Below, one piece after another: positions 23,504 to 50,573 of a stretch of 64,000 bases of DNA; positions within the stretch are counted from its first letter, which is position 1; every line of letters starts with the position of its first letter. The notes under the pieces were generated by a model, which did not search any database, had not been told where the DNA came from, and saw only the letters and a list, made by a program, of their open reading frames with translations. Origin of the DNA: Burkholderia oklahomensis C6786 (lineage in GTDB: Bacteria > Pseudomonadota > Gammaproteobacteria > Burkholderiales > Burkholderiaceae). The stretch covers positions 62,001-126,000 of the forward strand of contig NZ_CP009555.1 of NCBI RefSeq assembly GCF_000959365.1, given 5' to 3'. A program made the position numbers and the translations under genes.

Positions 23504-24421
23504 ATGCGAATCTCCCCCCTTCCCCCGCTGCAATGTCTGATTGCGTTCGAGGCGTCGGTCAGACACGCCAGCTTCACCCGCGCCGCCAGCGAACTCAATC
23601 TCACCCAGAGCGCGATCAGCCGGCAGATCGGCCAGCTCGAGGAATTCCTCGGCCGCGCGCTGTTCCTGCGCGAGCCGCGCGCGTTACGGCTGACGGTGGC
23701 CGGCGAGCGTTACGCCGAACGCATCCGCGCGCTGCTGGAGGAATGCTCCGAGGCGACCTTCGAAATCATGAAGCGCTACGGTGACCTCGATCTCGCCGTC
23801 GCCTGCTCGGCCGGCGTCGGCACGCTGTGGCTCACGCCGCGCCTCAGCTCGTTCTGCTCGGCCCACCCGAACATCAACCTGCGCCTGATCGTGCGCGACA
23901 GCCTCGCCTCGCTCGCGCCGTCCGAATTCGATGTCGGCCTCTATTACCTGCGCGACCGCTGCGAATCGCACCTCGATTCGCAACTGCTGATCGACGAGGA
24001 GGTGTTCCCGGTCTGCTCGCCCGACTATCTGGGCGGCCGGCTGCTGTCGCCGGCGGAGCTCGTGGAGGAAACGCTGCTGACCCACGAGGACCGCCAGCGG
24101 CCGTGGATGTCGTGGGATGAATGGCTCGAACTGAACGGCGTGGCGATGCCAAAGAAGCGGCGCATCATCGTCGCGAACCACTATCCGCAGCTAGTGCAGA
24201 TGGCCGTCTACGGGCAAGGCCTCGTGCTCGGCTGGAACCAGATGATCGATCACTACCTGGAGACGCGGCAGCTCGTGCGGGCCACGCGCGAGAGCGCCAC
24301 CAACGGCGGCGGCTACTACATCGTCACGCCCAACGAACGCTCGATGAAGCGGGCCGTGGCGCTGTTCAAGCGCTGGTTGACCCAGCAATCGGCGCCGAAC
24401 GAGCTATTGATCAGCGCCTGA
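23504..24421 (+). CDS. LysR-family transcriptional regulator (GcvA-like)
   Basis: A protein of 305 residues. The N-terminal winged helix reads PPLQCLIAFEASVRHASFTRAASELNLTQSAISRQIGQLEEFLGRALFLRE, the GcvA-type LysR signature. The effector-binding domain begins at about residue 95 (LDLAVACSAGVGTLWLTPRL) and is of normal length. It lies directly upstream of, and in the same direction as, the MFS-led operon, so it is the natural candidate regulator of the metabolic cluster. An inverted repeat with GCGCATGC arms lies in the gap after it. Confidence 0.9.
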   Translation: MRISPLPPLQCLIAFEASVRHASFTRAASELNLTQSAISRQIGQLEEFLGRALFLREPRALRLTVAGERYAERIRALLEECSEATFEIMKRYGDLDLAVACSAGVGTLWLTPRLSSFCSAHPNINLRLIVRDSLASLAPSEFDVGLYYLRDRCESHLDSQLLIDEEVFPVCSPDYLGGRLLSPAELVEETLLTHEDRQRPWMSWDEWLELNGVAMPKKRRIIVANHYPQLVQMAVYGQGLVLGWNQMIDHYLETRQLVRATRESATNGGGYYIVTPNERSMKRAVALFKRWLTQQSAPNELLISA

Positions 24422-24436
24422 GCCTCGGCATCCGCT

Positions 24437-24459
24437 GCGCATGCACTGCACGCATGCGC
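24437..24459. promoter_or_regulatory. Inverted repeat between lysR and the MFS gene
   Basis: GCGCATGC-ACTGCAC-GCATGCGC is a perfect 8-base inverted repeat with a 7-base spacer, 16 bases after the LysR stop and 158 bases before the operon's first ATG. There is no U-tract, so it is a poor terminator and may be an operator. The arm sequence recurs as a palindrome at 50714-50723 upstream of the second operon. Confidence 0.45.
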
Positions 24460-24616
24460 GGATGCAAATATTTCGTTTCGCTTGCCGCCCCGCCTCCTCT
24501 AGCATCGGACCTGAATTTTCCCTGACACGCCGAGCGCCTTCCACGGCCCAGTGCCCGAAGCGCGACCGGCGCGGGAATGAACCTGACCCGCGACGCATCT
24601 GATAGGAATCCTTATC

Positions 24617-25969
24617 ATGAGTGGAGCCCTTCTGTCCGGCCTGCCGCAGCGTGCGCAACCCGCACGCGGCTGGCGCACCGTCTGGGCCGCGGCGCTGGGC
24701 AACGCGTTCGAATGGTTCGATTTCACGCTCTACGGCTTCTTCGCGCCGGTGATCGCCACGCTGCTGTTTCCGGCCGCGGACCGGCTGACCGCGCTGCTGA
24801 TGGCGGTGGTCACGTTCGGCGTCGGCTTCGTGATGCGTCCGGTGGGCGGCATCGTGCTCGGCATCTTCGCCGATCGGCACGGCCGTCGCCCGGCGCTGGC
24901 GCTGACCGCACTGCTGATGGCGCTCGGCACGAGCCTGATCGCCTGCGTGCCGACCCATGCGCAGATCGGCGCCTGGGCGCCCGCGATCGTGGTGCTGGCG
25001 CGCCTGCTGCAAGGCTTCTCGGCCGGCGGCGAAATGGGCGGCGCCACCGCCTACCTGACCGAGATCGCGCCGCTTGGCCAGCGCGCCTACTATGCGAGCT
25101 GGATCCAGTCCGGCGTGGGCTTCGCGATCCTCTGCGGCGCGCTGCTCGGCACGCTGATGACCACCGCGCTCGACACCGAGGCACTACACGCCTGGGGTTG
25201 GCGCGTTCCGTTCCTGGCGGGCATGCTGATCGGCCCGATCGGTTATGCGATCCGCAGCCGACTCGACGAGACACCGGCGTTCGCGGCCGTCGCGGCGCGC
25301 GGGCCCCGCCGCTCGCCGCTTGCCGAGGTGGCGCACGGCTACCGCCGCGAGACGCTGGTCGGCATCGCGCTCGTGTTCCTCTGGACCGTCTGCACCTACG
25401 TGCTGCTGTTCTATATGCCGACCTACACCACCCAGGTGCTGGGGCTCGCGCCACGGGCCGGTTTCGTCGCCTGCATCGCGGGCGGGGCGACGCTGATGGC
25501 CGCGGCGCCGCTGGCCGGCCGGCTCGCCGACCGCCATGGCGGCAAATGGCTGATGGCGGGCGCGGCGGCAGCGATCCTCGTGCTCGCCTACCCGATGTTC
25601 GCGTTCATCCACCGCGTGCCGACCGTCGCCGCGCTGGTGGGCTTCCAGCTCACGTTCGGCCTGCTGATCGCCGGCTACACGGGCCCGATCCTCGCGGAAT
25701 TCACGCGGCTGTTCCCGACCGCCGTGCTCTCCACCGGCCTGTCGCTCGCCTACAACCTCGCGGTCATGCTGTTCGGCGGTTTCGCGCCGTTCTTCATCAC
25801 CTGGCTCACGCATGCGCTCGACAACGCGCTGGCCCCGGCGTTCTACGTGATGGCCGCCGCCTTCGTGAGCCTGATCGGCACGCTGCTGCTGCGCGCACCG
25901 GCGCCGCAAGCGGCGCCCCTCGCCCGGACGACGCGCACGGCACGCACCGGAGGCCGGCCATGGCACTGA
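24617..25969 (+). CDS. MFS transporter, metabolite:proton symporter type (ProP/ShiA-like)
   Basis: A protein of 450 residues with about 12 membrane segments. GNAFEWFDFTLYGFFAPVIA in TM1, GIFADRHGRRPALALTALLMALGTSLIACVPT between TM2 and TM3, and LLQGFSAGGEMGGATAYLTEIAP in TM4 are signatures of the sugar/metabolite symporter branch that includes ProP, ShiA and KgtP. It probably imports an organic acid or amino-acid-like compound, but export cannot be excluded. It is the first gene of the long plus-strand operon, and its end overlaps the amidohydrolase start by 10 bases. Confidence 0.9.
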   Translation: MSGALLSGLPQRAQPARGWRTVWAAALGNAFEWFDFTLYGFFAPVIATLLFPAADRLTALLMAVVTFGVGFVMRPVGGIVLGIFADRHGRRPALALTALLMALGTSLIACVPTHAQIGAWAPAIVVLARLLQGFSAGGEMGGATAYLTEIAPLGQRAYYASWIQSGVGFAILCGALLGTLMTTALDTEALHAWGWRVPFLAGMLIGPIGYAIRSRLDETPAFAAVAARGPRRSPLAEVAHGYRRETLVGIALVFLWTVCTYVLLFYMPTYTTQVLGLAPRAGFVACIAGGATLMAAAPLAGRLADRHGGKWLMAGAAAAILVLAYPMFAFIHRVPTVAALVGFQLTFGLLIAGYTGPILAEFTRLFPTAVLSTGLSLAYNLAVMLFGGFAPFFITWLTHALDNALAPAFYVMAAAFVSLIGTLLLRAPAPQAAPLARTTRTARTGGRPWH

Positions 25970-27204
25970 TCGTGATCCGCGGCGGCAACGTGCTCGACGT
26001 GGCGCGCGGCGAATGGCTGCCGCACCACCATGTCGTGATTGAGCGCGAGCGCATCGTCGAGGTGTCGGAACGGGCGCCGGCGCTGGCCGATGCCCATGTG
26101 ATCGATGCGCTCGGCAAGACGGTGATGCCGGGCCTGATCGACTGCCATGTCCATGTGCTCGCCTCGCACGCCAATCTCGGCTCCAACGCGGCCCAGCCCA
26201 ACCTGCTCGCGGCCATGCGCGCGCTGCCGATCCTGCGCGCGATGCTGCTGCGCGGCTTCACCAGCGTGCGCGACGCGGGCGGCGCCGACGGCGGGCTCGC
26301 GCAGGCCATCGCGCTGGGCCTCGTGACGGGGCCGCGACTGTTCCCGTCGGGCAAGGCGCTGTCACAGACGGGCGGCCATGGCGATTTCCGCATGACGGGA
26401 GACAGCGCCGATCCCTGCGATTGCCATGCGCGGGCCGGCGCGATCGCGCGCGTGGCGGACGGGGTCGACGCCGTGCGGCTGGCCGTGCGCCAGCAAATCC
26501 GCGACGGCGCCACGCAGATCAAGGTGATGGCCTCGGGCGGCGTGGCCTCGCCCGTCGACGAGATCGGCCATAGCCAGTATTCGGAAGCCGAGATCCGCGC
26601 GGCGGTGGACGAGGCGCGCGCGGCCAACACTTATGTAATGGCGCACGCCTACACGGGCGCGGCCATCACGCGCGCGATCCGCTGCGGCGTACGCACCATC
26701 GAGCACGGCAATCTCGTCGACGCTGCGGCGGCCGCCCTGATGCGCGAACACGGCGCCTATGCGGTGCCCACGCTCGTCACCTACGAGGCGATCGCGCGCT
26801 GCGGCGCCTCGGGCATGCCGGCCGCGGCGCTCGACAAGCTCGCGGCGGTGCGCGAGGCGGGCCGCGCCTCGCTCGAGATCTTCGCGAACGCGGGCGTGCC
26901 GATGGGCTTCGGCACCGACCTGCTCGGCGACATGCATCACCTGCAAGGCGAGGAATTCCGGCTGCGCGCCGAGCGGCTCGGCAATCTCGAGGCCCTGCGC
27001 GCCGCCACGACGGTGGCCGCGCGGATCCTCGGGCGGCCCGACACGCTCGGCACGATCGCGCCGGGCGCGATGGCGGACGTGCTCGTGGTGGACGGCGATC
27101 CGCTCGCCGACATCGGCGTGCTGGCCGGCAACGGCGAGCGCATCGATTACGTGCTGCATGGCGGACGCGTGCAACGGCGCGGCGAACTGGTCGGAGTCGA
27201 TTGA
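25960..27204 (+). CDS. Amidohydrolase, Xaa-Pro dipeptidase/imidazolonepropionase-like
   Basis: A protein of 414 residues. The metal-binding set of the superfamily is visible: GLIDCHVHVLASH (HxH), QIKVMASGGV (Lys), VMAHAYTG (His), GVRTIEHGNL (His) and GFGTDLLGD (Asp). The sequence resembles the Sgx9260/Xaa-Pro dipeptidase branch, which hydrolyses N-acyl amino acids or dipeptides. No signal peptide is seen, so it is cytosolic. In this cluster it could trim a peptide intermediate or process an imported compound. A 238-base gap follows before the tiny peptide gene. Confidence 0.88.
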   Translation: MALIVIRGGNVLDVARGEWLPHHHVVIERERIVEVSERAPALADAHVIDALGKTVMPGLIDCHVHVLASHANLGSNAAQPNLLAAMRALPILRAMLLRGFTSVRDAGGADGGLAQAIALGLVTGPRLFPSGKALSQTGGHGDFRMTGDSADPCDCHARAGAIARVADGVDAVRLAVRQQIRDGATQIKVMASGGVASPVDEIGHSQYSEAEIRAAVDEARAANTYVMAHAYTGAAITRAIRCGVRTIEHGNLVDAAAAALMREHGAYAVPTLVTYEAIARCGASGMPAAALDKLAAVREAGRASLEIFANAGVPMGFGTDLLGDMHHLQGEEFRLRAERLGNLEALRAATTVAARILGRPDTLGTIAPGAMADVLVVDGDPLADIGVLAGNGERIDYVLHGGRVQRRGELVGVD

Positions 27205-27442: not shown

Positions 27443-27493
27443 ATGCGTATCAAGCGTACGAAGCGCGTGTGTCTGATGAACGACGGTCTGTAA
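27443..27493 (+). CDS. 16-residue peptide, candidate precursor or scaffold peptide
   Basis: ATG 27443 with AAGGAG eight bases upstream encodes MRIKRTKRVCLMNDGL and then TAA. The first half is cationic (RIKRTKR) and the second holds one Cys and ends NDGL. It stands alone in a 400-base gap of the operon, has the best ribosome-binding site in the neighbourhood and is followed by a strong mRNA hairpin. The next gene encodes a PqqD-like peptide-recognition domain fused to an oxygenase-like domain. By analogy with PqqA and MftA it could be the peptide on which that enzyme works. The Glu...Tyr pair of PqqA and the Val-Tyr end of MftA are both absent. The alternative is a translated leader for attenuation. 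Confidence 0.6.
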   Translation: MRIKRTKRVCLMNDGL

Positions 27494-27517: not shown

Positions 27518-27547
27518 GAGCCGTCTCGCCGCCTGGCGAGGCGGCTC
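27518..27547 (+). promoter_or_regulatory. Strong mRNA hairpin after the peptide gene
   Basis: GAGCCGTCTCGCC-GCCT-GGCGAGGCGGCTC forms a 13-base-pair stem (one G-U pair) with a 4-base loop, 25 bases after the peptide stop and 56-59 bases before the next gene. No T-run follows. Such hairpins in RiPP operons stabilise the precursor message or attenuate read-through so that the peptide is made in excess. Confidence 0.65.
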
Positions 27548-27605: not shown

Positions 27606-28583
27606 ATGCACATCACACGCCCCATGCTGCGCAGCGACAGCGCGATCCGCCGCCTGGACGACTGCCTCGTCATCACCTATCTCGACGAAGACTACGAAAT
27701 CGAATTCGACGATCCTGCGTCGCTGCCGGCCACCGAGATCCTGCTCGGCCGCCTCGACGGCACGCGTACCATCGACGAGCTCTCGCACGACGCCGGCGGC
27801 CTGCGCCCCGAGCAGGTCGCGAGCACGCTGTCGATGCTCGACGGCAATTTCCTGCTCGCCGAAGGCGGCCACGCCGGCGCGCCGATGTCGGGCCTCGCTT
27901 TCGCGCTGCATCTGGAAGACCTCTACTACAACCGCTGGATGGGGCAGGACGGAGAGACCGCCCTGGTGCGCGCCGTGTTCGACGGCCGGGCCTCGCGCGA
28001 CGTGCTGGTCGGCTGGGGCTTCGAGTGCTACCACGTGACCACGCGCGCCCATGACTGCCTCGCGCCGATCATCGCGCGCATGCACGACGCGCTGCGCCCG
28101 CTCGCGATCGACTACGTGCTCGACGAATACCGGCACGACAAGCTGCTGATGAAATCGCTGCTGGCGCTCGGCCACACGCGCGAGACCGTCGAGCGCTCGC
28201 TGCCGCTGCCCTATACGCACGCGGTGATGAATCTGCTCGCGCGCTGGTCGAACACGGATCTGCTCAGCTTCATGGGCTGCCTGTTCGTGTTCGAGGGCAC
28301 GCAGGATATCGGTGACGCCTATATCCGCCGGCTCGAGCAATACGATCTGCCGCCCGAATTCCTGCGCGGCCAGTCGGTGCATAACGACGTGAACAATGCG
28401 GGCGATCATGGCGCCGTCTCGCGCCTGCTCTACAGCCGCTTCCCGTCGATCTGCCCCGACGACCAGGCGCGCGTGATCCGCAACCTGCGCATGCTCTACG
28501 ACGCGCAGCGGCGCAAGCACCAGAACGTGCTCGACTACTACAGCGATCCGGTGATCGGCATCCCGCGCATGCTGCCGCGCTGA
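27606..28583 (+). CDS. PqqD-like recognition domain fused to heme-oxygenase-like (candidate diiron) domain
   Basis: A protein of 325 residues; GGAG lies 10 bases before ATG 27606 (GTG 27603 is an alternative). Residues 1-90 look like a PqqD/RRE winged helix: 'P.LRSDSAIRRLDD', YLDEDYEIEFDD, ATEILLGRLDGTRTIDELSHD and VASTLSMLDGNFLLAEGG. Residues 97-325 resemble PqqC/TenA-type heme-oxygenase-fold proteins, with possible metal ligands in E140xxH143 (GFECYHV), E174xxH177 (LDEYRHD), E230 (VFEGTQ) and H259...D267-H268 (SVHNDVNNAGDHG). RRE domains bind leader peptides of RiPPs, and diiron heme-oxygenase-like enzymes oxidise, cleave or N-oxygenate substrates. The fusion fits an enzyme that modifies the 16-residue peptide encoded just upstream. 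Domain calls are from pattern and the chemistry is unknown. Confidence 0.75.
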   Translation: MHITRPMLRSDSAIRRLDDCLVITYLDEDYEIEFDDPASLPATEILLGRLDGTRTIDELSHDAGGLRPEQVASTLSMLDGNFLLAEGGHAGAPMSGLAFALHLEDLYYNRWMGQDGETALVRAVFDGRASRDVLVGWGFECYHVTTRAHDCLAPIIARMHDALRPLAIDYVLDEYRHDKLLMKSLLALGHTRETVERSLPLPYTHAVMNLLARWSNTDLLSFMGCLFVFEGTQDIGDAYIRRLEQYDLPPEFLRGQSVHNDVNNAGDHGAVSRLLYSRFPSICPDDQARVIRNLRMLYDAQRRKHQNVLDYYSDPVIGIPRMLPR

Positions 28584-28646: not shown

Positions 28647-29198
28647 ATGACGTCCGCCGCCGTCGCGCCCGCCACCCCGCTGGCCTTGCTCGCGGAGCAT
28701 CGCGAACAGATCGGCTATCTGCATGGCCGCCTCACCGAGGCGATCGCCAACGCCGTCGACAAGATCCGCCCATACGAGGCGCGTTACGCGCTCGGCAATG
28801 CCATGGTGCGCCATGCGCGCGCGCTGCTGCTGCGCCAGCGCGAGCAGGTCGAGATCGTGCCGCTGCCGGCCACCGAGGCGATCGCCAACCAGTTCTTCGT
28901 GCTGTCGCTGAACGATGCGCGCGTGTTCGTCCACCTGCTGCTGAACTTCTACCGAAGCGAGCTTCCCATGGCGACCTATCTGCATGACGCCGGCACCAAG
29001 GATGCACTGCATTTCGACGACGCCGACACGCGCTATTTCGAGGCCGTGGCCGATATCGCCGATTTCGAGTCGTGCGCCTCGCACCTCATGCTCGACGCCG
29101 ACGAGGCCGCGCGCCTCGAGGTGCAGCATCATCTGCTCGGCGAGACGCTGCGCTATCTGGCGGACGAGCTCGTCAACACGCATCCGCTGCACGCCTGA
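28647..29198 (+). CDS. Helical protein of unknown function
   Basis: A protein of 183 residues with GAGGAG before ATG 28647. It is predicted mainly helical (LLAEHREQIGYLHGRLTEAIANAVDKIRPYEARYALGNAMVRHARALLLRQREQ) and rich in His, Asp and Glu (DAGTKDALHFDDADTRYFEAV, VQHHLLGETLRYLADEL). No signal peptide or membrane segment is seen, and I recognise no family. It lies between the fused oxygenase and the aminotransferase with short gaps. The His/Asp pattern could bind a metal, and it may be a partner of the oxygenase-like protein. That is speculation. Confidence 0.7.
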   Translation: MTSAAVAPATPLALLAEHREQIGYLHGRLTEAIANAVDKIRPYEARYALGNAMVRHARALLLRQREQVEIVPLPATEAIANQFFVLSLNDARVFVHLLLNFYRSELPMATYLHDAGTKDALHFDDADTRYFEAVADIADFESCASHLMLDADEAARLEVQHHLLGETLRYLADELVNTHPLHA

Positions 29199-29213: not shown

Positions 29214-30341
29214 GTGTCCTCCAACGTCGGTCGCCCGCTGCTGGCCTCGCTGCCGGGCACGGCGGAGCGCTTCCCCGCGGTGCATGCCACACTTGCCGCC
29301 GGCAGCACGCCGCTGCATCTGAACGAGAGCCCCTATCCGCCCTCGCCGCGCGTGGCCGCCGCGCTGCAGCGCGCGTTCACCGATCTCAACCGCTATCCGG
29401 CACCGCACCCGGCCGAACTCGTCGCGGCGCTGGCCGAACGCAGCGACGTGGCCGCCGACACGGTGCTGACCGGCCCCGGCAGCGACGATCTCCTGCTGAC
29501 CCTCGCGCTGACCTTCCTCGAGCCCGGCGATGTCGCGCTGATGCCGGCACCGAGCTTCGGCAAGTACCACAGCGCGACCGCAGTGGCCGGCGGCCGCGCC
29601 GTGAGCGTGCCGATCGATGCGCACGGCGCCGTCGACCTGCGTGCGCTGGCCGCGCGGATCGGCCCGGACACGCGGCTCGTGTTCGTACCCACGCCGAACA
29701 ATCCGACCGGCGCGGGCGTGTCCGGCGACGAGATCGTGGCGTTCGCGGCGGCGCTGCCGCCCCATGTGGTCGCCGTCTTCGATCTGGCCTATCACGAATT
29801 CGCGCTGCGCTCGGGCGGCCCCGACGTGCCGCGCCTGCTCGCCGGCTGCCCGGCGCGCTGGATCTGCCTGCGCACGCTGTCGAAGGCGTATTGCCTCGCC
29901 GGGCTGCGCCTCGGCTACGCGCTCTGCGCCGATGCCGAGCTGCAATCGATGGTGTTGAAGATCCGCTCGGTCTTCAACGTCGGCACGCCGGCCATCGTGG
30001 CCGCGCTCGCCGCGCTCGACGACACCGAACACATGCGCGGCGTGGTCGACGCCATCGTCGGCGAGCGCGATCGGCTGCGCGCGGCCTTCACCGAGGCGAG
30101 CCTCGCGGTGCTGCCGAGCCAAGCCAATTTCCTCGCGGTGCGCGTGGGCCCCGGCCGCGACGCGCTCGTCGAGGCGCTGCGCGTGCGCGGGATCCTGATC
30201 GCGAAGATCGCGCATCCCGACTACGCGCAGTACGTGCGCATCTCGGTGGGCACGCCCGAGCAGAACCGCGTGCTGCTGGCCGGCCTGCACGCTTGTCTGG
30301 CCGCGACGCGCGCGGCCGAACCGTCCCGGACCCTGGACTGA
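29214..30341 (+). CDS. PLP-dependent class I/II aminotransferase (HisC-like)
   Basis: A protein of 375 residues with a GTG start after ACGGAGG. The fold-type I marks are present: LTGPGSDDLLLTLALTFLEPGD, FVPTPNNPTGAGVSGDEI (Asn/Pro site), AVFDLAYHEFA (Asp for the pyridine nitrogen) and CLRTLSKAYCLAGLRLGYAL with the Schiff-base Lys in SKAYxLAGLRLGY. This is closest to histidinol-phosphate aminotransferases and their secondary-metabolism relatives. In the cluster it may transaminate a keto acid or make an amino acid unit. The specific substrate is not visible. Confidence 0.9.
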   Translation: MSSNVGRPLLASLPGTAERFPAVHATLAAGSTPLHLNESPYPPSPRVAAALQRAFTDLNRYPAPHPAELVAALAERSDVAADTVLTGPGSDDLLLTLALTFLEPGDVALMPAPSFGKYHSATAVAGGRAVSVPIDAHGAVDLRALAARIGPDTRLVFVPTPNNPTGAGVSGDEIVAFAAALPPHVVAVFDLAYHEFALRSGGPDVPRLLAGCPARWICLRTLSKAYCLAGLRLGYALCADAELQSMVLKIRSVFNVGTPAIVAALAALDDTEHMRGVVDAIVGERDRLRAAFTEASLAVLPSQANFLAVRVGPGRDALVEALRVRGILIAKIAHPDYAQYVRISVGTPEQNRVLLAGLHACLAATRAAEPSRTLD

Positions 30342-30354: not shown

Positions 30355-30954
30355 ATGAATTTTTCCGAATACGTGATCGGCAAGGCGCTCTACAACCGCT
30401 GGGCCAACGAGAAGATCCTCGAGGCCGTCGCCACGCTGCACCCGGCGCAGCGCGACGAGCCGCTCGTGCCCGGGCTCGATTCGATCTACGCGGTGCTGAA
30501 TCATGTGCTCGTGGTCGACCGGATCTGGGTGGCCGAGGTGGGCGGCAGCGAGTTCGACACGCCCACCACGCGCACGCTGCTGCATGCCGACTGGGACGCC
30601 TACCTCGCGGACCGCCGCCGCACCGACGCGCGCATGCTCGAACTCGTCTCGGGCTTCGACGAGGCCGAGCTCACGGGCACGCTCTACTTCGACGAGGAGA
30701 TCCACTCCGACCTGCGCGAATGGCCGTTCGCGAGCGAAATCGACCATATCTTCCGGCATCAGGCCCATCATCGCGGGCAGGTCGTGCTGCTGCTGGAGGC
30801 CACGCCGGTGGGGCGGCTCAAGATCGACGGCCTGTTCGTGCCGCCCGGCCCGCGCCTCGATGCGCCGGGCGCCGCTGTCGTCGGATCTGCCGAAGCCATG
30901 GCCGCTGCGGCCGCCGCCGGAACCACGGCAGCCACCGCGCGGAGCGGAGCATGA
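30355..30954 (+). CDS. DinB-family metal-binding protein
   Basis: A protein of 199 residues with GGAGG before ATG 30355. It shows the DinB pattern: the opening YNRWANEKILEAVATL, NHVLVVDRIWVAEVGG (first His) and EIDHIFRHQAHHRGQVVLLL (HxxxH region). DinB proteins are four-helix metal-binding proteins, and many act as thiol-dependent transferases or isomerases. An Ala-rich tail follows residue 165. The end overlaps the next start as ATGA, so the genes are coupled. The role here is unknown. Confidence 0.88.
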   Translation: MNFSEYVIGKALYNRWANEKILEAVATLHPAQRDEPLVPGLDSIYAVLNHVLVVDRIWVAEVGGSEFDTPTTRTLLHADWDAYLADRRRTDARMLELVSGFDEAELTGTLYFDEEIHSDLREWPFASEIDHIFRHQAHHRGQVVLLLEATPVGRLKIDGLFVPPGPRLDAPGAAVVGSAEAMAAAAAAGTTAATARSGA

Positions 30955-31895
30955 CGCTGCTGATCGAAGCCGGTGCGGACGCGGCGCGCCAGTGGCAGCG
31001 CGTGCTGCAGGCACGCGACCCGGCGCTCGACATCCGCCTCTACCCCGAGGTGGGCAACGCGGCCGACATCACCTCGCTGCTGAGCTGGAAGCCGCCGCTC
31101 GGCCTGCTGCCGCAATTGCCGGCGCTGCGCCTGTTGCAGTGCAGCGGCGCCGGCGTCGACCAGTTGCTCGACCATCCCGAGCTGCCCGACTGCCTCGCGC
31201 GCGGCGTGCAGGTGGCGCGGCTCGTCGATCCCGGTCAGGCGCACGATCTGGCGGCCTATGTGCTGGCCGTCGCGCTCGGCTGGTACCGGCGGCTCGACGC
31301 CTATGCCGGGCAGGCGCAGCAAGGCCAGTGGCACCGGCTGTTCCCGCATCCGGCCAGCGCGCGCTGCCGCGTGGGCATCCTCGGCCTCGGCGTGATGGGC
31401 CGCGCGATCGCCCAGGCGTTCCTCGCCTGCGGCTTTCCGGTGGCCGGCTGGGCCGCCCGCCGCGCGAGCCTTGAGGGCATCGAGACCTACGCCGGCCGCG
31501 CCGAGCTGGCCGCGTTCGCCGATCAGTGCGGCGTGCTCGTCTGCGCGCTGCCGCTCACGCCCGATACGCACGGCATCCTCGACGCCGCCCTGTTCTCTCT
31601 GCTTGCGCCGCGCGCCTGCGTCGTCAACGTCGGCCGCGGCGGCCATCTCGTCGAGGCCGACCTGCTGGCCTGGCTCGCGCAGGCCCCCGACGCGGCGGCG
31701 GCGCTCGATGTCCATGCCAGCGAGCCGCTCGGCGCCGACCACCCGTTCTGGCGCCACCCGCGCATCCGCACGACACCGCATATCGGCGCATTCGCGGCGC
31801 CCGAACGCGTGGCCGGGCAGATCGTCGGCAACCATCACGGCGTCCTCTCGGGTCAGGTTCCGGCGCACCGGATCGACTTGCGGCGCGGCTACTGA
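30951..31895 (+). CDS. D-2-hydroxyacid dehydrogenase (glyoxylate/hydroxypyruvate reductase A-like)
   Basis: A protein of 314 residues. The NAD(P) Rossmann motif is RCRVGILGLGVMGRAIAQAF, the catalytic region includes VVNVGRGGHLVEADLLAWL and the final His lies in RTTPHIGAFAAPE. The absence of a long N-terminal extension and the 'CSGAGVDQLL' segment put it near GhrA. It would interconvert a 2-keto and a 2-hydroxy acid with NAD(P)H. With the FMN 2-hydroxyacid oxidase in the other operon, the cluster has two enzymes for keto/hydroxy interconversion. Confidence 0.9.
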   Translation: MTLLIEAGADAARQWQRVLQARDPALDIRLYPEVGNAADITSLLSWKPPLGLLPQLPALRLLQCSGAGVDQLLDHPELPDCLARGVQVARLVDPGQAHDLAAYVLAVALGWYRRLDAYAGQAQQGQWHRLFPHPASARCRVGILGLGVMGRAIAQAFLACGFPVAGWAARRASLEGIETYAGRAELAAFADQCGVLVCALPLTPDTHGILDAALFSLLAPRACVVNVGRGGHLVEADLLAWLAQAPDAAAALDVHASEPLGADHPFWRHPRIRTTPHIGAFAAPERVAGQIVGNHHGVLSGQVPAHRIDLRRGY

Positions 31896-36200: not shown

Positions 36201-36210
36201 ACCCTACGCC

Positions 36211-43698: not shown

Positions 43699-43714
43699 GG
43701 TCACTCCTGGCCGG

Positions 43715-44545
43715 TCACGCGGCGGCGCCGTCCTCGCGGTTCATGATCCACCGGGCGCAATCCTCGGCCCAGTGCAGCCCTTGCTCGCGCGCGAGCCCCA
43801 GCGCGTGCACGCCTTTCTGATACAGATGGAACTCCACCGGCCGGCCCGCCCCGATCAGCCGCTCGACATAACGCAGCGAATTGGCGGGCGGCACCTCGGT
43901 GTCCTCGGCGGTGTGCCAGACGAAGCTCCGCGGGGTGGCCGCGCCGATCGCCTCGACCGGGCTGAAAGCCCGGCGCCAGGCAGGGTCGTCGTGATACGAG
44001 CCGAGGAAGTTGCGCCGCGTCTCGTCGTGGCCGAGCGGCGCCATCAGGCTCAGCACGCCGTAGCAGAGCACGCAGAATTCGGGCGCCGCGTCGAGCTCGA
44101 CATGACGATCCACACCATGCTCGGCGAGCAGCGCACGGCCCGCGCCTGTGGCCAGCACGGCGGCCAGATGCGCACCGGCAGAGGTACCGACATACCCGAC
44201 GCGATCGGCCCGGTAGCCGAGCTCCTGCGCCAGCTCGCGCGCGAGCGCCATCGTGCGCAGGGCGTCGGTGCACATGGCGCGGAAGTCGTAACCCTCGGAG
44301 CCGAGCCGGAAGGCCGGCGCGAACACGGTCAGCCCGCGCTCGGAGAACCAGCGCCCGTAGTCGCGCCCCGACTTCGGCGAGAGGAACGTATAGGCGCCGC
44401 CCGGCAGCGCGATCAGCGCATGGCTGTCGCGCACGGCGCCGGCGTCGGGCAGATAGATGTCGAGTGTCACCTCGCGGGCCCGATCGTCGGGCCGCGCGAA
44501 CGGCGCCTCGCCGTCATACAGCGTCATGCTTCGCACGGTGGTCAT
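43715..44545 (-). CDS. Alpha/beta-hydrolase (esterase of the acetyl-hydrolase type)
   Basis: A protein of 276 residues. The oxyanion turn is LIALPGGAYTFLSPKSGRDY, the nucleophile Ser is in VGYVGTSAGAHLAAVLA, the acid is in HTAEDTEVPP and the His in YQKGVHALGLA. This matches BD-FAE/esterase proteins that remove acetyl or other ester groups. No signal peptide is seen. ATG 44545 overlaps the stop of the upstream glycosyltransferase gene by 4 bases. Confidence 0.9.
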   Translation of the reverse strand: MTTVRSMTLYDGEAPFARPDDRAREVTLDIYLPDAGAVRDSHALIALPGGAYTFLSPKSGRDYGRWFSERGLTVFAPAFRLGSEGYDFRAMCTDALRTMALARELAQELGYRADRVGYVGTSAGAHLAAVLATGAGRALLAEHGVDRHVELDAAPEFCVLCYGVLSLMAPLGHDETRRNFLGSYHDDPAWRRAFSPVEAIGAATPRSFVWHTAEDTEVPPANSLRYVERLIGAGRPVEFHLYQKGVHALGLAREQGLHWAEDCARWIMNREDGAAA

Positions 44546-46554
44546 CGCTCGCCTCCCGCTCCCGCGGCCGGCCGCAGGTCGGTGACCTGGCCGCGCGCCT
44601 CGTCGATCACGAATTCCGAGCCGGCCCAGGCCTGGGCCGGGTCGATCGGCTCACTGTGCCGCGCCAGCGCGCAACGGCAATCCTCGATGCCGTCGAGCAG
44701 CCAGGCCTGAGCTACCGGATCGAGCCCGGCGGCGTCGAACCAGTCGGCGAGCACCTGCCGGTAGAAGCGCATGATCGGCGCGTGGCGCGCCACGATGATC
44801 CGTTCGGCCAGTCGCTCGGCCGCCGTGTCGCGCGCCTCGTGGTCCATGGCCGCGAGCGGCCCGGTCAGGTCGAGGCCGAGCTCGGCGCCCAACGCGGCCA
44901 GCGCCCCCGGCTCGCCGAGCAGGCGGTCCAGCACGCGCGTCTCGAGCAGCCGGCGTGCCGGCGCATCCGCGAGCGCCAGCATGATCAGCGTGTTCTTGAG
45001 CAGCCAGCGCAGCGGGAACGCCACGCGCTCGGGAAACGCGACCTGTTCGTAGAAGCTGTCGGGGTAGCCGCGGATCTCGCGCTCGACCTGATCCTGGATC
45101 CGCGTCATGTGCAGGTAGAGGCCGCTCGCTCGCGCGATCGAATCGGCCCGCACGTCGCCGTAGAAGATATGGCGTGTGAGGCGGAAGTTGCGGACCATCT
45201 TGGCCAGGCGATCGGTTTCGGTCTCGGCGTAATAACGCGCGTCGCCGAGCACCACGCGGCAGCCCACGGCCTGCAGCACGCGGCCCGACTGATAGTCGGT
45301 GCCGGTGACGATCTTCAGCGACGGGCTCGACAGCTGATGCTGGCCGCCGATCGCGAAGCTCCAGCAGCGAAACGTCTTTAGCGCGTCGCTGGTGTCGGGC
45401 AACACGGCCTCCTCGAGAAAGCCGAGATCGGTAAACAGGCGCCGCAGGAACAGGTCATGGCCGATCAGCGCATGCCATTTCCACTTCTCGTCGCGCTCGA
45501 TATAACCGTTCTCGAGATAGACGACGGCGCGATCCTCGCCGGACACGGGCAACTGCTGAAGCAGCATCTGCCCGTCCGGGAAACATTTCGCGAGATGGCC
45601 CTGCGGATCGCGCAGCCAGACGGCGCGCCCGCCCGCGGCGGTGGCGAGGCGCCGGCGCTCGGCGCGCGACAGATGCCCGTAGGCGTCGATCGTGGCCAGC
45701 GAGAACCTCACGTCGTGCACGGCGGCGTCGGCGGGAATCGTGAAATCGGCATCGATCGCCGTATAACGACGGAAGAAACGCAGCGCAGCCGTCAGCTTGT
45801 AGATCAGGAACGGCATCACGCCATCGACGCACGGGTGCCGGGCAAGGATCGAATCGATCTCGCGCAGCACACCCCCGTGATAGACGGTGTCGCCGTCCGA
45901 CACGCCGATCGTGGCGCGCTGCAAGCGCGACCAGTCGCCGTCCGATTCGCTCATTGCCAGCACCGTGGCCATTGCGCGGTCGGTGCCGTAGCGCGCGGCG
46001 CTGCCGCCGCCCGGCGTCGGCTGGTTGAGGTAATAGACACGCGCCGCGGTGGCGTTGCCCGCGATCAACTGCTGCACCAGCGCCGGCGAGCGGTCCGACG
46101 AGTTGTTGTCGACCATCAGGATCACCACACGCGACAGGTCGAAATCCTGATTCAGCAGCGACAGCAGCGTGGCCTCGATATGCGGCTCCTCATCCATGAA
46201 CTTCACGATCACGAACACGTCACGGCCTTCGGCGGCCAGTGCCGCCGCGTCGGGCAGCGGCGCGACCTGGTCGGCGCCGAAATGCGCGGCCCGCATGCGC
46301 AGGTGGTCGCTCACGAGCTGGCGCTGCCAGTCGCGCACGGCATCGGCGTCGGCCTCGCCGGGCGTGCCGTCCGCGAGCGCCTCGCGCGCCAGCAGGATCC
46401 GCTGCGCCAGCGCGAGATGCGCGGCGGGAATCGCGTTGACATTGGACGTGCCGATCAGCGCCAGCAAGCGGCTCTGCAACACGTCGGCGGCCGGCTTCGC
46501 ACGGTTGCCGAGCGACGAGCAGGCGTTCAGGAACAGCGTTCGGGGTTCTCGCAT
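44542..46554 (-). CDS. Large glycosyltransferase (GT-A fold, family 2-like)
   Basis: A protein of 670 residues. The GT-A domain begins at about residue 115: DVFVIVKFMDEEPHIEATLLSLLNQDFDLSRVVILMVDNNSSDRSPALVQQ, with SDGDTVYHGG as the DxD-like region. The N-terminal ~110 residues and the long helical C-terminal part (FRLTRHIFYGDV, FPLRWLLKNTLIMLALADAPARRLL) are not familiar. No clear transmembrane anchor is found. It may transfer the sugar made by the dehydrogenase two genes later. Coupled on both sides, it is clearly part of the operon. The family is fairly sure and the acceptor unknown. Confidence 0.8.
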   Translation of the reverse strand: MREPRTLFLNACSSLGNRAKPAADVLQSRLLALIGTSNVNAIPAAHLALAQRILLAREALADGTPGEADADAVRDWQRQLVSDHLRMRAAHFGADQVAPLPDAAALAAEGRDVFVIVKFMDEEPHIEATLLSLLNQDFDLSRVVILMVDNNSSDRSPALVQQLIAGNATAARVYYLNQPTPGGGSAARYGTDRAMATVLAMSESDGDWSRLQRATIGVSDGDTVYHGGVLREIDSILARHPCVDGVMPFLIYKLTAALRFFRRYTAIDADFTIPADAAVHDVRFSLATIDAYGHLSRAERRRLATAAGGRAVWLRDPQGHLAKCFPDGQMLLQQLPVSGEDRAVVYLENGYIERDEKWKWHALIGHDLFLRRLFTDLGFLEEAVLPDTSDALKTFRCWSFAIGGQHQLSSPSLKIVTGTDYQSGRVLQAVGCRVVLGDARYYAETETDRLAKMVRNFRLTRHIFYGDVRADSIARASGLYLHMTRIQDQVEREIRGYPDSFYEQVAFPERVAFPLRWLLKNTLIMLALADAPARRLLETRVLDRLLGEPGALAALGAELGLDLTGPLAAMDHEARDTAAERLAERIIVARHAPIMRFYRQVLADWFDAAGLDPVAQAWLLDGIEDCRCALARHSEPIDPAQAWAGSEFVIDEARGQVTDLRPAAGAGGER

Positions 46555-46563
46555 CGATGCCTC

Positions 46564-47676
46564 TCAGCCAAGGGTGTGTCCGATCAGATCGCCGAGCCGC
46601 CTGCCCGCCGCGAGCAGGACGTCTTCGGGGTAATAGGTGAAAGCCAGCCGGATGCCGTTGCCGTGCGCGCTGCGGCACGAGAACACGTCGCCGGTATGGA
46701 ACGCGATGCCGGCGGCCAGCGCGCGGCGCCGCAGCTCGCCCATGTCGAGCGAGGCCGGGCAGTCGAGCCAGGCGAAATACCCACCGCTCGGCTCGCGAAA
46801 GCGCACGCGCGCGGGCAGCGTCTCGCGCAGCGCCTGAGACAGCGCGAGGCGGCGTGTCGTGCCGATTGCGTTCAGTTCGTCGAGGATGGCCTGCTGCTCG
46901 CCACGCGCGAGCAGATCGGCCACCACGCGTGCGGTGATCGGCGAGACGCCGCCGGCGCTGAGCAGCTCGCCCGAGCCGGCCAGCCGCTCGACCACCGCGG
47001 CCGATGCATGCATCCAGCCGAGCCGCACGCCGGGCGCGAGGATCTTCGAAAACGAGCCGACCGAGACGATCCGCTCGTCGCCATGGCGGTACATGCACTC
47101 GGGCATCGGCTCGCCGACGAATTGATAGACCTCGTCGAACAGCATCCAGACGCCATGGCGCGCCGACAACGCGCGCAGCGCCTCGCGTTTTTGCGCCGAT
47201 AGCGAAATGCCGGTCGGATTGTGGTTGACGGGAATGCTGTAGAGCATGTCCACGCGGCCGTGGCGCAGCAGTTGTTCGAGCCGCTCGACATCTAGGCCGT
47301 CTTCCTGCATCGGAATCGGCAACAGCTCGACATCCCAGTCCGCGAACATGCGCAGCGCGAGGAAATAGCTCGGATCCTCGACGGCGATGGTCGCGCGGGC
47401 CGGCAGGATCAACTTCAGCATCAGGTCGATCGCGTGCGAGGCGCCGCCGATCACGAGCAATTCCGCCACCGGCACCGGGCGGCCGTTGCGCGCCGCAAGG
47501 AACGCCGACAGCGCCTCGCGCAGCGCCGGCAAGCCGGCCTCGGGCGCGTACTGGAACGACGCGTCGCCGTCCTGCGCGAACAGGCGCCGGCACGCGTCGC
47601 CCCAGCGGCGCGACGGGAACCGCTGGTCCTCCATCTGCCCGATTCTCAGATCGACCTTCAGGTCCGTCGTGTCCAC
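46564..47676 (-). CDS. PLP-dependent aminotransferase (class I, MocR/2-aminoadipate type)
   Basis: A protein of 370 residues from GTG 47676, with GGAGG just upstream. Fold-type I features are FQYAPEAGLPALREALSAFLAARNG, YSIPVNHNPTGISLSAQKREAL, WMLFDEVYQFVGE (Asp) and VGSFSKILAPGVRLGWMHAS with the Schiff-base Lys in SFSKILAPGVRLGW. That motif is typical of the 2-aminoadipate/LysN-like branch. It is the second aminotransferase of the cluster and differs clearly from the HisC-like one, so at least two amino groups or keto acids are handled. Confidence 0.9.
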   Translation of the reverse strand: MDTTDLKVDLRIGQMEDQRFPSRRWGDACRRLFAQDGDASFQYAPEAGLPALREALSAFLAARNGRPVPVAELLVIGGASHAIDLMLKLILPARATIAVEDPSYFLALRMFADWDVELLPIPMQEDGLDVERLEQLLRHGRVDMLYSIPVNHNPTGISLSAQKREALRALSARHGVWMLFDEVYQFVGEPMPECMYRHGDERIVSVGSFSKILAPGVRLGWMHASAAVVERLAGSGELLSAGGVSPITARVVADLLARGEQQAILDELNAIGTTRRLALSQALRETLPARVRFREPSGGYFAWLDCPASLDMGELRRRALAAGIAFHTGDVFSCRSAHGNGIRLAFTYYPEDVLLAAGRRLGDLIGHTLG

Positions 47677-47747
47677 ACTTTCCTCCGTTCTGTCGCGCCC
47701 GCCGGCCTCGGCCCGGGCGGCCTTGCCCACGCGCCACGCGGCGCGGC

Positions 47748-48914
47748 TCAGCCCCACTCGCACGATCGCCGCGCCAGCCGCTCCGGATACAACAGGTCAC
47801 GATCGATCGCCGCGACCGACCGGCATCCGCACAGCGCCATGGCCAGCCGCAATTCGTCGGCGAGCAGCCGCAGCACCGCCTCGCTGCCGTCGGCGCCATC
47901 CACGGCAAGCCCGTAGATCGCGGGCCGGCCGACCAGCACCAGGCTCGCCCCCATCGCCAGCGCCTTGAGCACATCCTCGCCGCAGCGGATGCCGCTATCG
48001 ACGAGCACCGGCACGCGCACCGCGTCAGCCACCTCGGCCAGCACGTCGAACGGCGAGACGCAACTGTCGATCTGCCGCCCGCCATGATTCGACACGACGA
48101 TGGCGTCAGCGCCCGCCGACACGCAAGCCAGTGCATCGGACGCACGCAGGATGCCCTTCACGATCAGCCGGCCCGGCCACGCTGCACGAATCCGGCGCAA
48201 GGCCGCCGCGTCGAATGTCATGTCCATCTGGCGGCGCAGCAGGCTCGCTTGCGCGAGCGGATCGCGCACGTCGAGCACGCGCTCGATGTTGCGCAGACGC
48301 AGGTCCGCGAGCCGGCTGCCGTGCCGCCAGTAGCGCGGCGTGCGCAGCACGTCGACGCAGTGCGCGGGCCGCAGCCGGAACGGCAACGCAAAACCGTTGC
48401 GCAGGTCGCGCTCGCGCTTGCCGCTCACAGGCACGTCGACGGTCACCACCAGCGTCTCGCATCCGGCCGCGCGCAGGTCCGCCAGCAGCGCGTCCGACAG
48501 CGCCGCCTCCATCACATAGAGCTGGAACCAAGTGCGCACCGGCCCCCCGATCGCGACGGCCTCCTCCACCGTGCTGTTTGACGCCATCGACATCACGAAC
48601 GGCACATTGGCCCGCGCCGCGGCCGTCGCCAGGTGCAGATCGCCGCCGCGCCGGAAACAGCCGCTCATGCCCACCGGCGCGATGCCGATCGGCGCCGCGT
48701 AGGTGCGGCCAAACAGGGCCGCCTGCGTCGTCACGTTCGACACGTTCACGAGCCGGCGCGGATGCAGGCGGATCTCGCCCGGGCGTTGCAGGTTGTGGCG
48801 CAGGCCCGCCTCGCCGCCGGCGCCACCTTCGAGGTAATCGAAGACGAAGCGCGGCAGATGGCGCCGGGCCGCGTGCCGATATTGCTCGACGCTGTAGAGC
48901 CGCGCGCTACGCAT
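47748..48914 (-). CDS. FMN-dependent alpha-hydroxy acid oxidase/dehydrogenase (LldD/MftD-like)
   Basis: A protein of 388 residues. LPRFVFDYLEGGAGGEAGLRHN, APIGIAPVGMSGCFRRGGDLHLATAAARANVPFVMSMASNSTVEE, LVVTVDVPVSGKRERDLRNGF, WPGRLIVKGILRASDALACVSAGADAIVVSNHGGRQIDSCVSPFDVL and VDSGIRCGEDVLKALAMGA are the signature of the L-lactate dehydrogenase/glycolate oxidase family, with the active-site His in SNHGGRQ. It oxidises a 2-hydroxy acid to a keto acid. A member of this family (MftD) matures the RiPP cofactor mycofactocin, which is notable given the RRE protein in the other operon. The start at 48914 overlaps the upstream gene by 8 bases. Confidence 0.93.
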   Translation of the reverse strand: MRSARLYSVEQYRHAARRHLPRFVFDYLEGGAGGEAGLRHNLQRPGEIRLHPRRLVNVSNVTTQAALFGRTYAAPIGIAPVGMSGCFRRGGDLHLATAAARANVPFVMSMASNSTVEEAVAIGGPVRTWFQLYVMEAALSDALLADLRAAGCETLVVTVDVPVSGKRERDLRNGFALPFRLRPAHCVDVLRTPRYWRHGSRLADLRLRNIERVLDVRDPLAQASLLRRQMDMTFDAAALRRIRAAWPGRLIVKGILRASDALACVSAGADAIVVSNHGGRQIDSCVSPFDVLAEVADAVRVPVLVDSGIRCGEDVLKALAMGASLVLVGRPAIYGLAVDGADGSEAVLRLLADELRLAMALCGCRSVAAIDRDLLYPERLARRSCEWG

Positions 48915-49392
48915 GGCCGGCCCATTCGCCGCCAACGAAGCGGCTGCCCACGCGCTGGCTGTTCACCACCAGCACGCAGACCACGCCGGGCAGCAGCGAG
49001 GCGAACAGCCCCGTGATCCAGCGGCTGCCGATCCGGTCCTCCATGCCGCGCATGCAGGGCGGCTCCCACTCGCGCGGGGGCACCGGCGCGGCCACGTAGC
49101 ACGAGGCGATCCGCAGATGCAGATCGGGCGACAGCACATGGAAGCCGTCGTGCAGCGACGTGGATGCGCAGGCGTAGCGCGCGAGCCGGTCGTCGAGCAG
49201 CTCGTCGTCGGGCCCGGGCTCGCCGCGCGCGCGGTGGCGTACCGCCGGCAACTGGAACACCGGCAGGCGGGCCGCGTCGTCGGCCACGATGATGCCGAAG
49301 CCGTGGAAATCGCGGTTCGACTTCGCCAGCACGGCATCGACCAGCGCATCGAGCGCGTCGGGACGCCAGCGCGCGTCGTCGAATGCATTCAT
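48907..49392 (-). CDS. Small protein with a degenerate diadenylate-cyclase-like (DisA_N) pattern
   Basis: A protein of 161 residues. HGFGIIVADDAARLPVFQLPAV, then SLHDGFHVLSPDLHLRIASCYVAAP and RIGSRWITGLFASLLPGVVCVLVVNSQRVGSRFVGGEW, follow the order of the DAC domain: a DGA-like loop, a Cys-Tyr strand, a GtRHrAA-like segment and a final sensor strand. DGA has become DGF and the RHR-like motif GSRWITG, so cyclase activity is unlikely. A nucleotide-binding or sensing role is possible. No signal peptide is seen. It lies 20 bases after the amidinotransferase gene. The fold is a pattern-based guess and otherwise this is an orphan protein. Confidence 0.5.
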   Translation of the reverse strand: MNAFDDARWRPDALDALVDAVLAKSNRDFHGFGIIVADDAARLPVFQLPAVRHRARGEPGPDDELLDDRLARYACASTSLHDGFHVLSPDLHLRIASCYVAAPVPPREWEPPCMRGMEDRIGSRWITGLFASLLPGVVCVLVVNSQRVGSRFVGGEWAGHA

Positions 49393-49412
49393 GGTTCAGC
49401 CCTGAAGCCGGG

Positions 49413-50573
49413 TTAGAAGCGGCGATACCGGTGCGGGAAATAATCGTGCATCGTGCCGGCGCGCTCGATATCGACGGTCGAGCAATGCAGCCCGCCGCCG
49501 AACGGGGCGACATCCCAGAACGGCACGGGGATCACCTCGAAGCCGAGCCGGTCGAGTTGTTCCTGCTGGGCGAACTCGCTCGCCTCGACGAACACGGTGC
49601 GCTCGTCCAGGCTCAGCAGGTTCATCGACAGCCATTGCGAGCAGAAGCAGAGCTGCGGCAGCGTCTCGCGCGTGCGCGCCGGCTTCGCGGCCGACACGAT
49701 CTGCCAGTCGTTGAGGCGGAAGTATTCGACCATGTCCGGGTCGGCCGCACGCTCGCCGCAATGCAGGGCCAGCCCGGGCCGCAACGGCACGAGCGTCGCG
49801 TCGATGTGCTGCGGGTAGAAGTTGTCGAAGGTCACCGCATGCACGCGATGCTCGGGGAAATGATCGCGCAGCCAGCGGTAGCCGAGCTGGTTCGTCACCA
49901 TCGACAACTGCACGAACAGATCCTTGCCGAAGCGCACGATATCGGCAGCATCGAACAGCGGCTCGGCCTCGGTCAGCAGCAGCCGGTTGGCGCGCACGCG
50001 ATCGATCTTTTCGTTATCGGGCAGCGCCGGATAGCCCGTGTGGAAATCGGCATCGTAGGACGCCTCGGTCAGCCGCGGCTTGGGCGCCGCCTCCCAGCGC
50101 ATCGCGGCATCGTCGCGGTAGTAATCGAGCAGCAGCGGCCGGTAGCACAGATACTCGAACCAGCGGCTGCGCTGCGACATGGTGGCCTCGAGGATCTCGT
50201 TGCCCACCACGATCAGCACGTCGCGCGGCGGCATGCAGCCGAACATCGACTGCTGTGTCCAGTCGGGCGTGGCCACGGCCTGCGAGAAATCGAATTCGGG
50301 CGGGCGGTCCACCACCACGCCGCGGTCGGTCAGCAGCTTGGCGAGATGATCGAGCTGCGCATCCGCCGCGGCCACGAAATCGTCGGGCATCGGCCCGAAA
50401 CTGCCGTGCGGGAAACCGTGCTCGGGCCAGTCGCGCGAGACGGCCGGCTCCGGCGCCTGCACCATCGTTCCGCGCGCGCGCCCCACCATGATCCGCCGCA
50501 GCGGCGCCCACTCGTCCCAACTATTGACGCGTGCCGGCGCCTGGCGGCCGGCCTTGCCGATTTCCGTTTGCAT
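49413..50573 (-). CDS. Amidinotransferase (glycine/inosamine/lysine amidinotransferase family)
   Basis: A protein of 386 residues with GGAG before ATG 50573. Family marks are VNSWDEWAPLRRIMVGRARGTM at the start, CMPPRDVLIVVGNEILEATMSQRSRWFEYLCYRPLL, NQLGYRWLRDHFPEHRVHAVTF, HIDATLVPLRPGLAL with the catalytic His, and PFGGGLHCSTVDIERAG with the nucleophilic Cys364. These enzymes move an amidino group from arginine to an amine, as in creatine, cylindrospermopsin, streptomycin and phaseolotoxin biosynthesis. As first gene of the minus operon it suggests that a guanidino group is added to the product. The acceptor amine is unknown. Confidence 0.92.
   Translation of the reverse strand: MQTEIGKAGRQAPARVNSWDEWAPLRRIMVGRARGTMVQAPEPAVSRDWPEHGFPHGSFGPMPDDFVAAADAQLDHLAKLLTDRGVVVDRPPEFDFSQAVATPDWTQQSMFGCMPPRDVLIVVGNEILEATMSQRSRWFEYLCYRPLLLDYYRDDAAMRWEAAPKPRLTEASYDADFHTGYPALPDNEKIDRVRANRLLLTEAEPLFDAADIVRFGKDLFVQLSMVTNQLGYRWLRDHFPEHRVHAVTFDNFYPQHIDATLVPLRPGLALHCGERAADPDMVEYFRLNDWQIVSAAKPARTRETLPQLCFCSQWLSMNLLSLDERTVFVEASEFAQQEQLDRLGFEVIPVPFWDVAPFGGGLHCSTVDIERAGTMHDYFPHRYRRF

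Follow-up and report, generated by a model that had tools for sequence, protein, structure and literature searches.

Do the tightly packed genes at positions 23504-50573 of a 64,000-nt stretch of Burkholderia oklahomensis C6786 (contig NZ_CP009555.1, positions 62,001 to 126,000; hereafter the window, G+C 65%, to which all coordinates refer) constitute one biosynthetic pathway, and what would such a pathway make? The original prediction, made from the letters of the DNA, saw there two convergent operons that together would produce a new class of peptide-scaffolded small molecule, possibly with re-uptake. Our analysis points to a narrower answer. The core of the plus-strand operon is likely to encode a ribosomal micro-peptide pathway, as predicted from its genes, whereas the 27-kb block as a whole is probably not one pathway. 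The core elements are the following.

27443..27493, plus strand: predicted 16-codon precursor peptide gene, MRIKRTKRVCLMNDGL, with the Shine-Dalgarno (SD) sequence AAGGAG and relatives in five loci
27518..27547, plus strand: predicted RNA hairpin of 13 pairs (one G-U) with a 4-nt loop; the segment 27494-27602 has z -3.76
27606..28583, plus strand: fusion of a predicted N-terminal PqqD-like winged helix (about residues 1-90) with a heme-oxygenase-like diiron oxidase (HDO) domain (about residues 93-315), from PF14518, an AlphaFold2 (AF2) model, fold matches and ligand columns
28647..29198, plus strand: X1, a helical partner; in P0006 and P0009 a relative of it forms one protein with the oxidase

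The fusion protein, hereafter RRE-HDO (RRE, RiPP recognition element; RiPP, ribosomally synthesized and post-translationally modified peptide), belongs to a family that appears rare. A single-query search gave 11 homologues at E<=1e-3, and a profile search, in which exact shared words were required and the best 7997 candidates were scored, gave at least 23 at E<=1e-12; the best homologue, named Burkholderia gladioli, is 93% identical. Priestia flexa was the sole match in the scan of genome contigs for this family, and in a sample of Bacillota the family occurred at E<=1e-12 in 1 of 398 genomes, Priestia itself (1 of 10 in the sample of the genus). No RRE-HDO was found among phages and viral contigs, and a search of plasmid DNA with positions 27200-31000 of the window returned three short matches only, all within the part belonging to the aminotransferase gene AT1. 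Readable DNA was available for relatives of the oxidase from Priestia and, on plasmids, from Enterobacter, Rhodococcus, Tistrella and Robbsia.

In all six loci, the window and those of the five genera, a tiny open reading frame (ORF) preceded by an SD sequence lies upstream of the oxidase genes on the same strand. The peptides of the Priestia, Enterobacter, Rhodococcus and Robbsia loci are MIVKRSSKIRRTSVTL, MKVTRRVIPVMNARL, MTITKKKRTIVAVAVHL and MSQATTKQPVIVVKPRNPRPVLIPVHL, respectively; that of Tistrella is a 55-residue ORF with the C-terminal end EKPVLIAVHL. Every one of the six ends in Leu, encoded across the loci by CTG, CTT, CTG, CTC, CTA and CTC; since these are four different codons, it is the residue and not the codon that is conserved. 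As a control, 237 tiny SD ORFs (ATG start, 12-60 codons, one per stop) were collected from the window and from loci L001-L007 and L011-L013, on both strands in each case. Only 18 of them end in Leu, the six peptides counted in, and three end in VHL, these being exactly the peptides of Rhodococcus, Robbsia and Tistrella, that is, all three peptides of clusters with multiple HDOs. A Leu-ending tiny SD ORF of 12-30 codons within 300 nt was present at 59 of 6400 random positions, a null that contains the true sites, as compared with all five loci tested. The pattern M-x-[IV]-x-[KR] recurs in four of the six peptides. A lone 16-codon ORF proves nothing; the window peptide gene is credible because relatives carry counterpart genes, and judged from these sequences the peptide is beyond chance through its relatives, not by itself.

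A predicted hairpin separates the peptide and oxidase genes in five of the six loci. Compared with shuffled sequences, the segment from peptide stop to oxidase start has z scores of -3.76 in the window, -3.82 in Priestia, -3.38 in Enterobacter, -5.11 in Rhodococcus and -6.96 in Robbsia. When 49 windows upstream of coding genes were scored as a control, the same five gave z of -2.57 to -6.76 and the other 44 gave z of -2.03 to +2.21. RiPP operons often have a hairpin after the precursor gene. Neither a sigma-70-type promoter nor a T-run terminator was called at 27150-27700, and no Rfam family scored above its own threshold at 20000-54000.

The oxidase, for its part, appears to be built for gripping and modifying the peptide. 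It comprises 325 residues (translation could alternatively start from an in-frame GTG at 27603), and its AF2 model has a predicted local distance difference test score of 91. Residues 93-315 adopt the heme-oxygenase fold, with structural matches to CADD, 3dde, PqqC, TenA, HrmI, FlcD, UndA and heme oxygenases. For residues 1-90 the model shows four strands and then three helices, which we take to be the PqqD-like order, and the N-terminal domain is accordingly predicted, from the model, to be PqqD-like (RRE-type). The structural rows of VIA-align mostly span residues 93-315 and include no PqqD chain, so that they are uninformative on this domain. All 27 aligned sequences have E140, E174, H177, E230, H259, N263 and H268, and 23 of them have H143; in another set of 16, with proteins of Enterobacter, Rhodococcus and Robbsia among them, E174, H177, E230, H259, N263 and H268 are identical throughout. 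Most HDOs, according to a 2026 review, have a three-His/three-carboxylate metal site (PMC13108848).

In P0006 and P0009 the oxidase is extended at its C-terminus by a stretch to which X1 is 38-42% identical; this natural fusion occurs in 2 of the 11 first-round homologues, and the model of the fused copy consists of helices throughout. No family of Pfam, NCBIfam or PHROGs and no plasmid sequence matched X1. An initial comparison of the X1 profile with the HDO family matched the fused X1 copies themselves; rerun minus those two rows, it gave a probability of 84 and E 7.5e-6 (one pairwise comparison), with the alignment to the HDO core centred on a PLPxTxAxxN segment. X1 resembles the Priestia partner weakly (E 2.2e-5 by hmmsearch in a set of 16 sequences; probability 2.2 by hhalign), and neither the C-terminal extension of the Enterobacter oxidase nor the N-terminal part of a Robbsia HDO matched X1. 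The records of Rhodococcus, Robbsia and Tistrella each contain two or three adjacent HDO matches, which fits paired HDO subunits. X1 is probably a degenerate HDO paralogue or partner.

In our reading the core is a RiPP or scaffold-peptide pathway that starts from a micro-precursor and would act near its C-terminal Leu. The reading is built on what was computed, namely the peptide gene family with its Leu, the hairpins of five loci, the two-domain model of the fusion, the metal-ligand positions and the X1 fusion. The hairpin after the peptide gene would damp transcription or stabilise the message, leaving the peptide in excess. The basic N-terminal half of the peptide may be bound by the PqqD-like domain as a beta strand, as the presence of this domain and of M-x-[IV]-x-[KR] suggests, and the diiron centre together with X1 would oxidise the C-terminal region, most likely the invariant Leu, in view of its conservation. 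The weakest steps come last: the modified end would probably be released, the aminotransferase, 2-hydroxyacid dehydrogenase and aldolase-family enzymes might reshape it, and EamA might export the product. In its fullest form the proposal is that of an undescribed class of ribosomal pathways with members in three phyla or more. Their diiron oxidase, heterodimeric and fused to an RRE, would act on carrier peptides of 15-55 residues and make a small, non-proteinogenic building block out of the C-terminal Leu; this block would be cleaved off and leave the cell, with the peptide serving as scaffold rather than as product. We advance this form tentatively, as a possibility rather than an expectation.

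Several observations weigh against this reading. The Tistrella peptide precedes another gene (acetolactate-synthase-like, as judged from its translation) and came to light only when 2.4 kb instead of 0.9 kb was searched, the 900-nt upstream scan and a second scan having given no fitting peptide; it fails the 300-nt proximity rule, has no further plasmid match, and is followed by a predicted hairpin that falls short of significance (z -0.96), the DNA there being very rich in G+C. In Robbsia a second, overlapping out-of-frame ORF also fits the proximity rule, and the peptides outside the VHL group have little in common except Leu and basic residues. The RRE call rests on model topology, Pfam giving no PqqD match; the profile of the N-terminal domain had no significant match among solved structures, the best RiPP-related one being PbtF (E 0.18), with two designed helical proteins slightly better. 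E140 and H143 stand at 90% or more in the set of 16 and are not invariant there, and the invariant Asn263 lies near the position at which, by our mapping of the HDO motif, a carboxylate ligand would be expected. The Enterobacter aminotransferase and dehydrogenase, finally, are 23-24% identical to those of the window and possibly represent a separate recruitment.

Among known systems, the core resembles the biosynthesis of pyrroloquinoline quinone (PQQ) by PqqA, PqqD and PqqC, which likewise combines a tiny precursor, a PqqD-like domain (in the window a predicted one) and a heme-oxygenase fold; the PqqCD fusion structure 5vrd is among the structural matches of the oxidase model. It differs in that the core has no PqqE-type radical S-adenosylmethionine (SAM) enzyme and the peptide no Glu/Tyr pair, while the fusion has the reversed domain order and has metal-ligand residues. 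No radical SAM maturase of the PQQ or mycofactocin type was found among the cluster ORFs scanned. The pearlin/3-thiaglutamate scaffold-peptide pathway uses a ribosomal peptide as the support on whose C-terminus a small molecule is assembled; in contrast, the scan of cluster ORFs revealed no LanB-like (peptide aminoacyl-tRNA ligase) domain, and the window peptide has 16 residues. The closest fold by Foldseek is that of CADD (8va9, 1rcw; template modelling score 0.83 to target), a dimetal HDO for which we know of no precursor peptide.

The review mentioned above states that CADD uses its own Tyr, lists ribosomal peptide modification as one HDO role, counts roughly a dozen functionally validated HDOs, and contains neither PqqD nor RRE in its text (PMC13108848). 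Like the proposed oxidase, the mangotoxin HDO MboA, as described in the available portion of the report on it, oxidises the C-terminal residue of a small peptide, on which it makes an alkyne, and uses a partner protein (PMC13185094). Its substrate, however, is a tripeptide made by ATP-grasp ligases and not by the ribosome, that portion mentions no PqqD-like domain (PMC13185094), and MboA has only weak sequence similarity to the window oxidase (E 0.84). Thiovarsolin VarO is similar in being an HDO of a RiPP pathway, one in which an amidinotransferase gene occurs as well, but thiovarsolin is made by a YcaO/TfuA pathway from a repeating precursor (PMC6511847); neither feature is present in the window cluster, where no YcaO/TfuA pair was found among the ORFs scanned. 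Titles and abstracts of the open-access literature contained no RRE-fused HDO with a micro-precursor; this covers open-access literature only, so that such a system may be described in subscription papers. In term searches, 'heme oxygenase' was absent from the main text of two RRE papers.

The remaining genes of the block are listed below; all those named by the original prediction were located by domain scans.

23504..27204, plus strand: LysR, MFS and amidohydrolase genes, an upstream block of uncertain pathway membership
29214..30341, plus strand: HisC-like class I/II aminotransferase AT1 (domain models)
30355..30954, plus strand: DinB-family protein (Pfam)
30951..31895, plus strand: GhrA-like D-2-hydroxyacid dehydrogenase (domain models)
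31906..32649, plus strand: class II aldolase/adducin family protein (domain models)
32655..33569, plus strand: EamA-type exporter (Pfam)
33626..35179, plus strand: peptide-type solute-binding protein, pathway membership uncertain
35193..38678, plus strand: OppB, OppC and fused OppDF importer genes, membership uncertain
38675..39703, plus strand: histone deacetylase (HDAC)-fold deacylase, membership uncertain
42385..50573, minus strand: operon of amidinotransferase, X2, flavin mononucleotide (FMN) oxidase, MppQ-like aminotransferase AT2, glycosyltransferase GT2, alpha/beta hydrolase and nucleotide-sugar dehydrogenase, probably a separate module
49413-50573, minus strand, within this operon: amidinotransferase (structure/profile homology)
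48907-49392, minus strand, within this operon: X2, a small protein
43715-44545, minus strand, within this operon: alpha/beta hydrolase

The earlier inventory had lacked X1, X2, the aldolase-family protein, the alpha/beta hydrolase and a pair of ORFs of the extracellular contractile injection system (eCIS) core; its placing of both operons under one LysR gene is not something that the sequence itself shows. Gaps of 195, 238 and 112 nt separate LysR from MFS, the amidohydrolase from the peptide gene and the peptide gene from the oxidase gene, respectively. From the oxidase gene to the HDAC-fold gene neighbours are spaced by -4 to +63 nt, with several overlaps, and spacings in the minus-strand run are -29 to +20 nt. 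Together, the solute-binding protein and OppB-C-DF make up a complete importer set. Between the two operons lie the eCIS-core (PF13699) coding region at 39849-41590, open in two overlapping frames and seemingly unrelated to either, and likewise a LysE exporter gene. Insertion-sequence and integrase genes (IS66, rve-type, mutator, phage integrase) occupy both flanks (17139-22053 and 51732-61230), and type VI secretion genes are present at 1632-16680 (two VgrG-like proteins, a Tle1-like phospholipase-type protein, TssF). In agreement with the original prediction, no domain of a radical SAM enzyme, non-ribosomal peptide synthetase or polyketide synthase was found among the cluster ORFs scanned with Pfam. 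The 2-hydroxyacid oxidase that had been called MftD-like does resemble MftD as a member of the FMN superfamily, but it is no MftD equivalog (166.5 bits against a cut-off of 470.85), and it scores higher with the L-lactate dehydrogenase model (299.5 bits).

The amidinotransferase is homologous over its full length to AGAT, SxtG, HsvA and inosamine-phosphate amidinotransferase (E 3.5e-74, for 1jdx, to 1.1e-52) and is one of a very large family (2519 or more relatives at E<=1e-30); many of its close relatives are named 'serine/threonine protein kinase', apparently a wrong name. AT2 is nearest to MppQ, PdxR/MocR-type and GntC models, all below cut-off; MppQ is its best NCBIfam model (199.4 bits against a cut-off of 540), so that AT2 falls short of the equivalog, and these matches hint at guanidino amino-acid chemistry. 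Distant relatives of X2 adjoin genes of cyclic-oligonucleotide-based antiphage signalling systems in Agrobacterium and Rhizobium plasmids (L012:7923-8405; L013:7947-8390).

That both operons form one cluster joining peptide, guanidino and sugar chemistry, as had been proposed, would be in keeping with their adjacency and convergence, the high G+C at third codon positions in both and the flanking insertion sequences. Contig counts are also compatible with joint presence in Burkholderia: 36 for the amidinotransferase cluster P0026, and 28 plus 11 for the RRE-HDO clusters P0001 and P0002. However, on a plasmid of Azospirillum B510 relatives of GT2, the hydrolase, X2 and the nucleotide-sugar dehydrogenase (52, 52, 36 and 46% identity) lie within 6 kb in the same order and on the same strand, with one extra open stretch between hydrolase and X2. 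The stretch has no match to the amidinotransferase or the FMN oxidase, and the record, which is that of the plasmid only, has none to RRE-HDO. Because four of its seven genes thus recur together without RRE-HDO, the minus-strand operon looks separable. In the five other peptide loci, within the 13-19 kb examined in each, tblastn at E<=1e-3 found no relative of the importer or of any gene from the amidinotransferase to the nucleotide-sugar dehydrogenase, GT2 included, except for the broad aminotransferase family. Streptomyces and Photobacterium neighbourhoods of the amidinotransferase share that gene alone with the window, plus a weak 77-residue GT2 match in Photobacterium. Moreover, the longest amidinotransferase contig (3,979,285 bases) exceeds the longest RRE-HDO contigs among Burkholderia entries (3,916,445 and 3,732,771), and therefore at least one contig apparently has the amidinotransferase without RRE-HDO. 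We consider a single pathway unlikely, and the minus-strand operon is probably a separate module. The proposed new peptide-scaffolded class consequently survives for the RiPP or scaffold core without radical SAM enzyme, on the strength of the peptide and RRE-HDO genes and of peptide genes in five genera, and not for the whole 27 kb. Re-uptake by Opp is no more than possible: the importer is close by, yet has no relative in the other peptide loci.

A different view of the core itself is that the tiny ORF and the hairpin constitute a leader-peptide attenuator of the operon, for example a leucine-sensing one, and that the substrate of the oxidase is a free small molecule. The classical attenuator layout is indeed a short ORF and then a hairpin ahead of the first enzyme gene, and the final codon always specifies Leu. 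What the loci have in common, however, is a single terminal Leu codon rather than several regulatory codons in a row; the sharing of VHL and of basic N-terminal residues is at the level of the protein, the oxidase carries a predicted PqqD-like domain, and the Tistrella peptide has 55 residues. Attenuation is thus quite improbable as compared with the peptide pathway that we favour. Least probable of all is that the plus-strand genes are mainly an operon for peptide or opine uptake and breakdown into which oxidase and peptide were captured as a cassette: the full Opp importer, HDAC-fold hydrolase, aminotransferase, dehydrogenase and dipeptidase-like amidohydrolase (283 bits to an Xaa-Pro dipeptidase model, cut-off 500) would suit it, but from the oxidase and X1 through AT1, DinB, dehydrogenase and aldolase to the exporter the genes follow closely on one another, at spacings of -4 to +63 nt, and the Enterobacter aminotransferase/dehydrogenase pair has no importer among the listed genes of its locus.

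The neighbourhoods of the other peptide loci vary in content. The Enterobacter locus, like the window, pairs an aminotransferase with a D-2-hydroxyacid dehydrogenase; E. coli genomes gave no megablast match to this cluster. Exporter-type genes are present in the window and in the Priestia, Enterobacter, Rhodococcus and Robbsia loci, an NTP_transf_5 gene is common to Priestia and Enterobacter, and an acetyltransferase (30% identical) to Rhodococcus and Robbsia. The plasmid cluster of Enterobacter chuandaensis (L004:1-10980) also contains a second HDO as well as a DUF2817 and a U32 peptidase, possible release enzymes. In Priestia flexa, a divergent operon that looks like a fosfomycin-type phosphonate cluster adjoins the peptide and RRE-HDO genes (L003:1925-7714); it encodes a phosphoenolpyruvate mutase, a homocitrate-synthase-like enzyme, a cupin, an amino-acid-kinase-family protein that is FomA-like below cut-off, and a thymidylate-kinase-like protein.

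The core thus represents a candidate for a new family of RiPP or scaffold-peptide pathways, with members in Pseudomonadota, Bacillota and Actinomycetota, and our results suggest an undescribed family of peptide-based natural-product pathways. HDOs are catalysts of many unusual oxidations, and here a likely substrate with a fixed Leu end is encoded beside the enzyme, which makes for a directly testable enzyme-substrate pair. The combination of a tiny Leu-ending ORF, a hairpin and an RRE-HDO may also serve as a search rule for finding clusters that gene callers skip, their precursors being too short.

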